From the NCBI GenBank assembly GCA_004124475.1, contig SCKK01000018.1, positions 1 to 57,676 of the forward strand: a DNA stretch of 57,676 nt, read 5' to 3'. The position numbers were made by a program, and so were the translations under genes. The notes below the pieces were generated by a model that had not been told where the DNA came from, searched no databases, and worked only from the letters and a program-made list of their open reading frames with translations. Origin of the DNA: Fidelibacterota bacterium. Lineage in GTDB: Bacteria > Fidelibacterota > Marinisomatia > Marinisomatales > SCKK01. Of the stretch, positions 705-4,558 are shown in pieces. Every line of letters begins with the position of its first letter. Within the stretch, counting starts at the first letter, position 1.

Positions 705-1262
705 TCATTCTCCAAACAAGATGTAAAGATGTTGTTTAAGTTTCTTCGACTGCCCTATTACTGTGCGACCCCAGCCTACCAATGGCTCAGGAATCTTCAC
801 CCACTTAGCTCTTTCATCGTACAGCAAATAGGCGTCCCACAGTACCTTCCCTCGATACTCAGGAGTCACGTTTTGCTTGAACCACAGTCCAATAGAACGG
901 TCATCATTCCAGAGATGAATAACCCTATCGTCAGGCATCAATGCTTGGGAAACAGTGGCGCTACTTAGAGAATCCTTTCTCAGGATTGGAAGCCATACAA
1001 CGTACACACGAAGATCAACGGATGGATAAGTTTCAAGAATGTTTGTCTGCACCCAACTGGCGCCTTGTTTACAGACGGGTCAAGTGGGCGAAAAAAGGAG
1101 AATCAGACGCAGTTTTCCCTCATCCTCATTGAACATCGTTTTCAATGTCTCCACATCGCTGACCCGGAGCTTGGAGTGCCTCGCCTGCATTGTATCTCCG
1201 TCAAGGAAACCACCCGCCAGACCGGTGAAAAGCGCCACCCCAACAATAAGCAATTTTACCAT
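705..1262 (-). CDS. Thioredoxin-fold protein with in-frame UGA at the first redox Cys (probable selenoprotein)
   Basis: The reading frame opens at ATG 1262, has a hydrophobic N-terminal signal or anchor (residues 3-18), meets TGA at codon 61 (1080-1082) and continues open in the same frame for 124 residues to a stop at 705. Around the TGA it reads LLFSPT-[UGA]-PVCKQGASWVQ, so the UGA takes the place of the first Cys of a thioredoxin-type CxxC after a beta strand. A UxxC motif is a hallmark of bacterial redox selenoproteins. A hairpin with bSECIS-like geometry follows (1045-1076). The total is 185 aa with selenocysteine at 61. It sits 18 bp after sixA, with an AGAGGA ribosome site. A gene finder would split it into 60-aa and 115-aa pieces. 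The alternative is a TGC-to-TGA nonsense mutation. The function is inferred as an exported or anchored thiol oxidoreductase; no selenium machinery is in the window. Confidence 0.72.
1045..1076 (-). promoter_or_regulatory. Candidate bacterial SECIS hairpin
   Basis: On the minus strand, three bases after the UGA, GTCTGT pairs with GCAGAC (six pairs, one a G-U). An A-U pair, a two-by-two A/G mismatch and CAA/TTG pairs follow, closing an 8-nt loop GGCGCCAG. The loop starts 15 nt after the UGA and begins with G. Bacterial SECIS elements are hairpins placed directly after the UGA with a conserved G among the first loop bases, at about this distance. Confidence 0.5.
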
Positions 1263-1280
1263 GCTCTTAATTCCTCTTTT

Positions 1281-1772
1281 TCATTTCAGGTTCGAGATCA
1301 ACGCCAAGCTCCTCAGCAATTCCGGTCGTATCATCCAAACGATGATCCAATTTCCGGATTCCCCCCGCTCCAGACAGATTACAGAACCGGGCTGAAATTC
1401 AACGACCGGGACATCCTCATCGCCGGCGACAAGTTGGGATACCAGTTTCCCCATAAAGGGAAGATGACCCACTAGCATGACATCTTTATCCCACCTCTCT
1501 GCCTCAGTAGCCACTCTGTCTACAGGATCAAGAGGAGCAATCCCGTCTCGTTGGGCTAATACGCCTCCAGCGGCAAGACAGCCCCTTAGCAACCGAGCTG
1601 TATCCTCTGACCGCTTCTTTCCACTGTGATAAATTGTAGATATTTCAACACCGCCACGTGACAGTAACTCAGCCATTTGTGTAACATCTTCCCTGCCCTT
1701 ATCACTCAATCCCCGTTCGGGGTCCACATCTTCAGGAAGGGATTCACCATGTTGGACTAAGTAAAGCTTCAT
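1281..1772 (-). CDS. sixA: SixA-type phosphohistidine phosphatase
   Basis: A 163-aa member of the histidine phosphatase (phosphoglycerate mutase-like) superfamily. The N-terminal LVQHGES holds the nucleophilic His that becomes phosphorylated; most relatives have RHG, while some SixA-like proteins have QHG as here. A second conserved block, VGHLPFMG (about 103-110), supplies the other catalytic His. The size matches SixA, which has the fold alone. SixA removes phosphate from histidine phosphotransfer domains or NPr-type carriers, so a regulatory role in the cytoplasm is likely, but the substrate is unknown. The start is ATG 1772 with a GAGAGGT site upstream. It is followed after 18 bp by the probable selenoprotein, presumably on one transcript. 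Confidence 0.85.
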   Translation of the reverse strand: MKLYLVQHGESLPEDVDPERGLSDKGREDVTQMAELLSRGGVEISTIYHSGKKRSEDTARLLRGCLAAGGVLAQRDGIAPLDPVDRVATEAERWDKDVMLVGHLPFMGKLVSQLVAGDEDVPVVEFQPGSVICLERGESGNWIIVWMIRPELLRSLALISNLK

Positions 1773-1865: not shown

Positions 1866-2559
1866 TCAATTCTTTATATCGATACCTCCAAAGGCTACCG
1901 TGCAGATAAAGTGAACTTTTCCCCCTGTTTTTTCTCCTCCCGCAGCCGTCTTATTTTCAATTCCTCCAAAGATTGGCATACCTGGCTCAGACACATTCCA
2001 GTCAGGTGGAACTATGACTTCTACCCCACCAAATAGAGCTGTAAGAGTAAAATTACATCCTTAAGGAGATTACCCTTGCCTGACAAAGGTCTAGGTTGAC
2101 ACCCCCAAAAAGTGCCATTACGTCACCCCCTTTGAGATTCTGAGAAGTAACAATTCGCTCAGCGCCACCGAAAATCGCATTGGCTCTAATAAAATCACCG
2201 GAAACTCCCCCGGAGGAGACTCTTTCCCCCAGTGACCTATCCTTCCTCTTGAGTATCATAACTGCACCAATGGCGATTAGTATTAGTGGCCAGAAACGAA
2301 AATTGTTGCCCCAATTGATAATGTTCAAATTAGCTGACAGGAAAACAACCCCTACAATGAATAGGATCGTACCCTTTGCTTTATCCTGTCCCCTTAATTT
2401 CGCAAAGCCGATGAGGATCAAAATCAGTGGCCACCAGTGAGCGAAAGTACTACCGACATTTAAAATGTCCAGAGTGTCCATTAAAAACAGAACCCCAACC
2501 ACTACCAATAGAATGCCCACCCATGTGTGCTATGATGATTTTTTATACTGATTCACCAT
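1866..2559 (-). pseudogene. LiaF/LiaI-like membrane protein, disrupted twice
   Basis: The intact-looking middle (2053-2520, GTG start) has four hydrophobic segments arranged as two repeats, each ending WWPLILI or FWPLILI, then a LiaF-like C-terminal domain with repeated 'FGG' strands. The C-terminal half continues in another frame down to TGA 1866-1868, ending FGGIDIKN. The two frames meet near 2061, where one extra base breaks the frame. Upstream, the natural ATG at 2559 with a ribosome-like site is followed by an in-frame TAG at codon 10 (2530-2532). The whole span is 694 nt, 231 codons plus one base. Proteins of this family sense cell-envelope stress or sit beside such sensors. With two lesions it is probably non-functional, or assembly-damaged. 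Confidence 0.8.
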
Positions 2560-2705: not shown

Positions 2706-3286
2706 TTACGCCTTTTGCTTCATCTCAGGCTCAAGATCCACTCCCAATTCCTCAACAATTCTATTAATATAATTGAAATAACCCACCACCTGCGCGGCAT
2801 CACTGATTGCAGGTTCAGAAAAACCCGCATCCTTTAAACTATCAATATCAACCATACCCATCTTCCCCGAAGTTATTGTCAACTTGACTGCCCACTTACA
2901 AAGCGTTTTATCCTTGTCACTTAATTCTGCAGTGCGCCAATCATGCTTGAGATGTTTTGCAAATTCAGGATCGTTGACTTCATCCCGCCTGTCTGCCCTG
3001 CCTGACGGCAGGCAGGCGACTGGCAGGGAAGCCATCACCGTATGATTCTGTTCAGTAGTAGCAGTGATTGGTCTGGGAGATAACCACAGCCAGCATTTCC
3101 CGTTGAGAGCGGGAAAGTTCTGATATTTCTTTCATAACCGCCAGATATAACCCCATGAAAGATTGAAGGGCTTGAGGGCTTTGGCTCATGACCTTGAGAA
3201 TATTGAATACCTTTCCGGAGGGGCGAACTCCCTTTTCATACTCGATCTTGATGAGTCCTAGGCTCAATAACACTAATGTAAGCCAT
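2706..3286 (-). pseudogene. AhpD-like (carboxymuconolactone decarboxylase fold) peroxidase-related gene, broken; UGA at CxxC
   Basis: ATG 3286 begins MAYISVIEP, then one extra base near 3259 shifts into GLIKIEYEKGVRPSGKVFNIL. The frame reads to NHCYY followed by TGA (3052-3054), TESYGDGF, then a 40-bp palindrome (2988-3027), then RDEVNDPEFAKHLKHDWR to the stop at 2706. Removing the palindrome and one base leaves exactly 180 codons. Family relatives have CxxC followed by a conserved His. Here the second Cys is UGA, as in known CxxU AhpD-like selenoproteins, and the following His is Tyr. Intact members reduce peroxides using the CxxC pair. The ancestral gene was probably a selenoprotein; it now looks dead from the insertion and frameshift. 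Confidence 0.75.
2988..3027. repeat. 40-bp palindromic element inserted in the AhpD-like gene (copy 2)
   Basis: On the minus strand it runs from CCTGCCAGTCGCC to GGCAGGGCAGACAGG. The coding sense is restored if exactly these 40 bases are removed: GDGF joins RDEVNDPEF. Forty is not a multiple of three, so the insertion alone shifts the frame by one. It is related to 466-500 and 31930-31982. Confidence 0.75.
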
Positions 3287-3390: not shown

Positions 3391-3780
3391 TTAAATTGTT
3401 ACTAAGGTCAATGAATACTCTTTAGCAATTTCATCGAAGTCTTTATCAGTAGTAAACAGTTCATAGCCAGCTTGGAGGCACTGAGCAGCGATCAAACAAT
3501 CTGCCAAAGGAATGGTTCTACCTTTCCTTCGAAGATTGTAACCTATCTCACCCCCCTTGACCCACGTAGCGTAATCAAACTCGACGTAGGGTAATACACT
3601 AAGACCACCCTTTATCTTATCGTACTCACTTCTAGATTTTACACCCTGGAGTAATTCACCCAGAACAATACCATTATATACAATCTCATCATCCTTGATT
3701 TTCCCCTGTACAAATTGAGCGACAGGCGATAGCCTGTTCCGAAAGCATTCTATCCAAACAGAGGTATCATTTAAAATCAA
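3391..3780 (-). CDS. vapC: VapC-family PIN-domain ribonuclease toxin
   Basis: A 129-aa PIN domain of normal VapC length. It carries the acidic metal-binding set: D5 in MILND, E42 in LGELLQG, D94 in PLADCLIA and D112 in FTTDKD. VapC toxins are Mg2+-dependent endoribonucleases that cut tRNA or rRNA when not held by the VapB antitoxin. The ATG at 3780 lies 14 nt inside the end of vapB, so the two are translationally coupled. All key residues are present, so the toxin looks active. The target RNA cannot be told from sequence. Confidence 0.9.
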   Translation of the reverse strand: MILNDTSVWIECFRNRLSPVAQFVQGKIKDDEIVYNGIVLGELLQGVKSRSEYDKIKGGLSVLPYVEFDYATWVKGGEIGYNLRRKGRTIPLADCLIAAQCLQAGYELFTTDKDFDEIAKEYSLTLVTI

Positions 3781-3982
3781 CTTCTCGAAACTCCGTTTTT
3801 CTCAGTTCGTCCAAATCAATATCAAGATCAATGTTCCCGAACAACGATAACAGTTTTTCCTTCTCTTTCATCTTGATGTAGTTTTCAATTGCTTCTCTGA
3901 CAGCTTTAATAACAGAGTCTTTTTTTGTCACCTCTAACAACTTATTTGCTACCGTATCATCTATTGTTAATGTTGTTCTCAT
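3767..3982 (-). CDS. vapB: VapB-type ribbon-helix-helix antitoxin
   Basis: A 71-aa antitoxin. The N-terminal MRTTLTIDD strand and following helices (to about residue 45) form a ribbon-helix-helix DNA-binding fold. The C-terminal tail LDELRKTEFREVDF is the part that should block VapC. I start it at ATG 3982, preceded by GGAGTAAT; in-frame codons further upstream (to 4018) lie in the presumed operator. It overlaps vapC by 14 nt. RHH antitoxins repress their own promoter together with the toxin. Confidence 0.85.
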   Translation of the reverse strand: MRTTLTIDDTVANKLLEVTKKDSVIKAVREAIENYIKMKEKEKLLSLFGNIDLDIDLDELRKTEFREVDFK

Positions 3983-4140
3983 CATATTACTCCAATAATG
4001 ATGCGTATTATTTGTCAATATAGCATCATTGCGTCATCATTTCAAGCATCATTTCTCTCATCTCATCTATGATTATCTGTGTTCATATGGAGAGGGGGCT
4101 TCCAATCGCTTGGTCATAACATCAGTCGATAGACCTACCA
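3983..4140. repeat. Direct repeat upstream of vapB, copy 1
   Basis: About 158 bp that reappears at 4401-4558 with only scattered differences, including the shared string TCTATGATTATCTGTGTTCA. It contains the presumed vapB promoter and operator and, in the other copy, runs to the stop codon of the M14 peptidase gene. The spacing between copies is 418 bp. Confidence 0.85.
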
Positions 4141-4198
4141 GTAGACCTTCTTTATAACGGTAATAATGTATCCAAACGGAGGTATCAACTAAAATCAA
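4073..4198 (-). pseudogene. Truncated vapC remnant after the second vapB
   Basis: A 41-codon frame starts at TTG 4198, overlapping the second vapB by 14 nt exactly as the intact pair does. It reads LILVDTSVWIHYYRY, clearly a VapC N-terminus with the first catalytic Asp, then runs into sequence copied from downstream of the M14 peptidase gene and stops. It lacks the other acidic residues, so it cannot be a working nuclease. It marks the junction of a tandem duplication. Confidence 0.75.
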
Positions 4199-4400
4199 CT
4201 TTTCTGAATTCCGTATTTCTCAACTCGTCCAGATCAATTTTCAAATCTATCGTACCTCTCATTTCCATGAGTCTTTTTATTCTCTGCTTTTTGATAAAGG
4301 ATTCAATAGCCTCTCTTATAGCTTTGGTAATTGTTTCCGCATGGGAAAGCTCCAAAAGTTCTTTTGCAGACTTGTCATCAATTATTATTGTTGTTCTCAT
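4185..4400 (-). CDS. Second VapB-type antitoxin (orphan)
   Basis: A 71-aa paralogue of the antitoxin at 3767-3982. It shares the MRTT...IDD start, the RHH helices and the tail DLDELRNTEFRKVDF, but the middle differs at many positions. Its cognate toxin is reduced to the fragment at 4073-4198. It may act as an orphan regulator or anti-toxin for the intact vapC, or be decaying. The start is set at ATG 4400 by the GGAG site. Confidence 0.75.
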   Translation of the reverse strand: MRTTIIIDDKSAKELLELSHAETITKAIREAIESFIKKQRIKRLMEMRGTIDLKIDLDELRNTEFRKVDFS

Positions 4401-4558
4401 CATATTGCTCCAATATTGATGCGTAATATTTGTCAATATAGCATCACTACGTCATTATATCAAGCATCATTTTTCTCATCTCATCTATGATTATCTGTGT
4501 TCATATGGAGAGGGGGCTTCCAATCGCTTGGTCATAACATCAGTTGATAGACCTACCA
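4401..4558. repeat. Direct repeat upstream of second vapB, copy 2
   Basis: Partner of 3983-4140. Its distal end includes the TAG stop codon of the M14 peptidase gene (4553-4555), showing that this copy is in the ancestral position and that copy 1 arose by tandem duplication. The flanks are much more alike than the antitoxin coding parts. Confidence 0.85.

Follow-up and report, generated by a model that had tools for sequence, protein, structure and literature searches.

A probable family of exported thioredoxin-like UxxC selenoproteins, dominated by selenocysteine, traced from a Fidelibacterota contig

Selenoproteins with a UxxC motif are already known as a kind, and the family described here is notable for the dominance of selenocysteine (Sec) in it. 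The Prx-like thiol:disulfide oxidoreductase and the Redoxin family selenoproteins have the UxxC motif, a thioredoxin-like fold and a bacterial bSECIS, as does the family studied here (PMC13188914). SaoT (NF040730) is also a small thioredoxin-like selenoprotein with UxxC. Many selenoprotein families of the 2026 catalogue are represented by NCBIfam models. A bSECIS is expected to have a G in the first two loop positions, to lie 16-37 nt after the UGA, to have a stem of at least 4 bp and to reach -7.5 kcal/mol or less (PMC13188914). The present study concerns a gene in the window, by which we mean the whole stretch of 57,676 nucleotides of a Fidelibacterota contig (SCKK01000018.1) that was analysed. 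Its features are collected in Table 1.

Table 1. Position of the UxxC selenoprotein gene, its elements and its neighbours in the window
Feature	Position	Strand	Remarks
UxxC selenoprotein gene, exported thioredoxin-like protein (computational evidence; export likely)	705..1262	-	185 residues plus stop; one frame, one internal TGA, shared by orthologues
Sec codon TGA, codon 61, opening the U-P-V-C motif	1080..1082	-	among aligned distinct relatives, 46 have TGA and 8 have Cys
Signal peptide or membrane anchor, probable (MVKLLIVGVALFTGLAGGFL)	1203..1262	-	hydrophobic N-terminus by inspection
bSECIS-type hairpin GCGCC-AGUUG-GGUGC	1049..1063	-	loop from about nt 22 downstream of the TGA, G at second loop position; pairing and covariation
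Alternative minimum-energy hairpin, that of the earlier reading	1045..1076	-	MFE -12.8 kcal/mol; not conserved
AhpD-like C-terminus remnant (IAEELGVDLEPEMKKRN-stop)	1267..1320	-	judged against the AhpD-like tails of G034 (IADGLGVDLEVEMKKRSVT) and G001
SixA-type phosphohistidine phosphatase	1281..1772	-	TIGR00249, 105 bits, above cut-off
LiaF-like membrane protein	2053..2520	-	PF22570, 89.5 bits
AhpD-like (CxxU) gene, frameshifted, with palindromic repeat insert	2706..3286	-	split over two frames; pieces 58-65% identical to the unbroken copy of G034

The gene runs from an ATG at 1262-1260 to a terminal TGA at 707-705. When the single internal TGA is read as Sec, a frame of 185 residues results, in which 124 sense codons follow the TGA and the motif reads LILLFSPT-U-PVC-KQGASWVQ. 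A sequence-only reading of this DNA had described the same frame, with a TGA only at codon 61 and 124 residues beyond it, giving no strand; the frame was found on the minus strand. It had also said that gene callers would split the gene in two, and standard ORF calling did give one ORF of 60 aa (1080-1262) and another of 115 aa from a GTG (705-1052). An in-frame opening of 124 codons after the TGA appeared in 14 of 20,000 base shuffles. The frame alone is already unlikely to have arisen by chance, and the comparative evidence is far stronger. Taken at face value, the output of the gene callers would mean that a peptide of 60 residues and a protein of 115 residues, the latter started at the GTG at 1052, come from two separate genes. 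Such an arrangement is very improbable: the segment PVCKQGASW between the TGA and the GTG is among the most conserved, with C64, G67, A68 and W70 all preceding the GTG, the second piece alone would have neither the active-site motif nor strand 51-57, the first of the core, and both pieces form one unbroken frame in the Cys relatives. The strongest conservation was observed at P59, U/C61, C64, W142 and D143, which span the TGA. In comparison with a 59% orthologue (genome G034), dN downstream of the TGA was 0.27 per site with synonymous change saturated, and the same pattern was seen upstream. Judged by these substitutions, purifying selection acts on both sides of the TGA. The pair formed by G000, the genome containing the window, and G001 is too close for dN/dS.

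G000 (3.15 Mb, 77 contigs, 95% complete) has the means to insert Sec. It was found to contain selA (530 bits), selB (349 bits), selD (387 bits) and a tRNA-Sec with anticodon UCA, the four components whose presence the earlier reading had left to be checked. Rfam and tRNA scans of the window gave no match; the Sec machinery sits on other contigs. The selD of this genome itself has an in-frame TGA in the loop HGSGUASK (L017:1399-2448; G000:C16:58135-59061), the usual Sec site of SelD. In addition, selA was above cut-off in all nine carrier genomes tested and, among the control genomes, only in E. coli.

Comparative analysis has shown that the TGA is shared widely. The closest named record for the gene is Candidatus Neomarinimicrobiota bacterium B71T3L11, with 97% identity over the gene, and G000 is by kinship a Neomarinimicrobiota MAG. 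Orthologues with the same TGA show 97% identity within the genus and 59% in another family of the same order; they were found in three further genomes of the same phylum, and six of 245 genomes of the phylum carry the gene in total. A scan of GTDB contigs brought members from Acidobacteriota, Chloroflexota and Zixibacteria, every one with TGA at the same place. Among genomes sampled from the phyla of these three carriers, the family was present in 48 of 396 (about 12%), 9 of 400 and 10 of 132, respectively, and the carriers mostly have exactly one TGA per copy. No relatives of the family were found in viral contigs, and plasmids gave no relatives of the one Chloroflexota member used as query. 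The equivalent of codon 61 is TGA in 47 and Cys in 8 of the 55 distinct copies inspected for the motif, a count from which one copy with neither Sec nor Cys (L081) is left out. The Cys copies are dispersed over a tree of 54 rows; seven changes between Sec and Cys are needed, and at least six of them are forced by well-supported branches. Sec is the rule in this family and Cys the exception.

Two unusual copies should be noted here. One copy from the phylum of the Acidobacteriota carrier (L049, genome G498) reads U-P-K-U in the motif, with both U positions encoded by in-frame TGA, and is probably a double-Sec UxxU variant. In L081 (genome G1168, phylum of the Zixibacteria carrier) SPTSASS replaces the motif and the redox residues are lost.

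A frameshift or other decay in relatives sharing the TGA had been named beforehand as evidence against a selenoprotein; the TGA is kept intact down to about 30% identity, and alignment with relatives, as had been proposed, revealed Cys at codon 61 in eight of them. The proposal that the gene encodes a selenoprotein is thus supported by the Sec machinery, by the TGA being kept without decay and by Cys at the same site in relatives. The frame by itself shows readthrough only, and the TGA could in principle be read as another residue, by tryptophan insertion or leaky readthrough. This is highly improbable, as Cys is the replacement in 8 of the 8 motif-bearing copies without TGA and selA is present in all the carriers tested. 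On the computational evidence, positions 1262-705 of the minus strand constitute one Sec-encoding selenoprotein gene, to which we give a probability of about 0.94.

The RNA downstream of the TGA adds another dimension to this reading. The hairpin GCGCC-AGUUG-GGUGC lies 20-34 nt from the TGA. Among 21 distinct sequences, 98.1% of its cells are paired, and its covariation score exceeded 500 of 500 shuffles and every slid control. The informative pair joins the wobble positions of codons 67 (Gly) and 71 (Val) (C-G in 15, U-A in 5 and G-C in 3). It is Watson-Crick in 23 of 23 sequences (22 distinct); 200,000 permutations never equalled this, the best reaching 21, a figure which is not a true probability since the sequences are related and phylogeny inflates covariation counts. 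The changes at this wobble pair are nearly all synonymous and are therefore most simply read as selection on the RNA. The loop of the conserved hairpin is A-G-U-U-G or C-G-G-U-G, and in its loop pattern, its spacing (about nt 22) and its energy of -7.7 kcal/mol the hairpin agrees with the bSECIS rules (PMC13188914).

In the window sequence another fold is lower in energy than this covarying hairpin, which reaches -7.7 kcal/mol alone and -9.2 with the outer pairs against -12.8 for the minimum-energy fold. That fold, computed on the 45 nt following the TGA, has the loop GGCGCCAG, starting at nt 16. The sequence-only reading had proposed a hairpin 15 nt after the TGA; it does exist here as this fold but is not conserved (60.5% of cells paired in relatives, with no excess over shuffles), and the overlapping GCGCC-AGUUG-GGUGC covaries instead. 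The folding energy itself is unremarkable (z of -0.94 against dinucleotide and -0.52 against synonymous shuffles) and fails to separate Sec from Cys copies, the mean synonymous z being -0.51 for TGA and -0.97 for Cys copies. Minimum folding energy, being uninformative, was rejected as SECIS evidence. Copies without the GAxWV motif often have another stem (UUCGG/CCGAA or UUCGAG) with a G-rich, GGC-type loop at about nt 18; this second type was seen in L037, L041, L042, L046-L048, L050, L052 and L055. The second kind of hairpin suggests that the SECIS re-formed at a different position.

It could be argued that the TGA is a true stop, created by a nonsense mutation in a Cys gene which would now be a pseudogene, and decay does occur locally, where the neighbouring AhpD-like gene in the window is broken. 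For the UxxC gene such an origin is exceedingly improbable. The same TGA is present in four phyla at 30-60% identity with the downstream frame intact, the sequence downstream of the TGA is under strong purifying selection, the genome has the full Sec machinery and the wobble bases downstream of the TGA covary. We continue to read the gene as an intact selenoprotein gene.

The broken AhpD-like gene (2706-3286) encodes NHCYY followed by TGA, a CxxU motif; its frame is shifted close to the start, and a palindromic repeat has been inserted downstream of the TGA. Several relatives have intact AhpD-like copies with the TGA, and by its sequence the gene is probably a decayed second selenoprotein gene beside the intact one. 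In G034 the AhpD-like CxxU selenoprotein gene is followed directly by the UxxC gene and then by the LiaF-like gene and sixA, whereas the order in the window is broken AhpD-like gene, LiaF-like gene, sixA and UxxC gene. The AhpD-like remnant overlaps the 3' end of sixA in another frame and lies 4 nt ahead of the selenoprotein start codon, and it is likewise present in G001. Because of the order in G034 and the remnant before the UxxC start, the AhpD-UxxC pair appears to be ancestral to these genera and to have been rearranged later. The ancestral adjacency suggests that the two proteins may have acted together under peroxide or thiol stress. Outside the phylum, no common neighbours of the UxxC gene were seen, and its context is not conserved across phyla.

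Other features of the neighbourhood were observed as well. The C-terminus of the window SixA, encoded over the AhpD remnant in another frame, is unlike that of G034. A pair of tandem repeats of about 60 bases (CAGTTCTCAATATCATTCAGATTTACG...) and a REP-like palindrome (CCTGCCTACGCACAGCGTGCAGG...) lie at 205-320 and about 466-500 of the window, and they resemble in kind the insert in the AhpD-like gene. At 3391-4436 of the minus strand a PIN-domain gene is accompanied by a VapB-like partner (3767-4018), of which a second near-copy stands alone at 4185-4436 (minus strand).

A structure model built from 42 relatives had a mean pLDDT of 91; a first model from 6 sequences was poor, and the fold matches from it were set aside. 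The model consists of strand 51-57, the motif at 61-64, helix 62-76, strands 84-90, 144-154 and 158-166 and helix 172-183. The predicted structure and Foldseek comparison together show a thioredoxin core topology in which the motif opens the first core helix. The earlier reading had placed the TGA at the first Cys of a CxxC; in the model, U61 stands where the helix behind the first core strand begins, which is where a CxxC is usually found. Foldseek matches in the PDB were 2ls5, 2b5x (YkuV), 1lu4, ResA, CcmG and AhpC, with a best E of 1.8e-5, and the TM-scores to solved structures were modest (0.35-0.53 by query length). A profile search against PDB sequences gave a weak match to 2l5o (E 0.005) with the CxxC aligned. 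The protein is thus predicted to have a thioredoxin fold of the TlpA/ResA/peroxiredoxin type, its matches being of the TlpA/ResA/CcmG and peroxiredoxin/GPx kinds. WD40 matches to residues 88-141 in a single-sequence PDB search were taken as chance, and none recurred with family profiles. Directly before strand 144-154 the alignment has no conserved Pro; a Trp-Asp (W142-D143) is invariant there.

The N-terminus is hydrophobic in the window protein and in most relatives, and several have a lipobox; because of this the protein is likely to be exported. Its fold, motif and location make it most likely an exported thiol/selenol oxidoreductase. A mechanism on the following lines is reasonably probable. 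SelB with Sec-tRNA(Sec) would read the TGA, aided by the GCGCC-AGUUG-GGUGC hairpin, and the protein would be moved outside the cytoplasm. The selenolate of Sec61 would then be the attacking residue, with a disulfide, a sulfenic acid or a peroxide as its target. Cys64 could act as the resolving residue, forming a selenenylsulfide Sec61-Cys64, which would be reset by a cellular thiol donor.

The question arises whether the family is already catalogued. Among 42 members, none scored above gathering for Pfam Thioredoxin, AhpC-TSA, Redoxin or DSBA (best E 0.013, Thioredoxin), and NCBIfam gave no convincing match for any member, its models for selenoproteins of the 2026 catalogue included. No earlier description of the family was found in the literature searched. 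The gene could belong to a loose family listed already, such as the 'Redoxin family protein' (UxxC; MBA3499694.1, HEU0032618.1) or the 'Trx-like 3' (GOS) of the marine surveys, as these entries share UxxC and a thioredoxin-like fold, some of them are defined by weak domain matches and Redoxin matches one of the 42 members at E 0.041. This is unlikely in view of the lack of a convincing Pfam or NCBIfam match in any member, the entries having been compared through models and descriptions only. There is a good likelihood that these are uncatalogued exported thioredoxin-like selenoproteins of at least four phyla, with Sec as the ancestral or prevailing state, Cys repeatedly arisen and an invariant Trp-Asp at the place of the cis-proline. 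If this is true, the family would be largely hidden from public annotation, each Sec copy being cut at the TGA. Standard annotation truncates most copies, so that a fairly common and probably exported redox protein is missed. The family adds a Sec-dominant case in which a hairpin covaries and Sec and Cys have been exchanged several times, which is useful for asking when Sec gives way to Cys, and it can serve to test selenoprotein finders that depend on many Cys relatives.

The comparison with known systems can be summed up by family. The exported thioredoxin-like proteins TlpA, ResA and CcmG are alike in predicted fold (Foldseek probability 1.0), in probable export and in the motif opening the first core helix, but the window family is without a Pfam or NCBIfam match above cut-off. 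Where thioredoxins have a cis-proline before the strand, the window family has W142-D143, an equivalence drawn from the order of the elements only. The Prx-like and Redoxin selenoproteins differ in that the window family is without convincing PF00578 or PF08534 matches and has the flanks SPT-U-xxC-xxGA. Among the selenoprotein models, SaoT alone gave a signal with the window protein, which reaches E 0.17 and 11.7 bits against a cut-off of 65. The AhpD-like peroxidase-related protein (TIGR01926) is likewise a selenoprotein, encoded by the adjacent gene in G034 and left as a remnant beside the window gene, but it belongs to an unrelated family of the carboxymuconolactone decarboxylase type and bears CxxU rather than UxxC.
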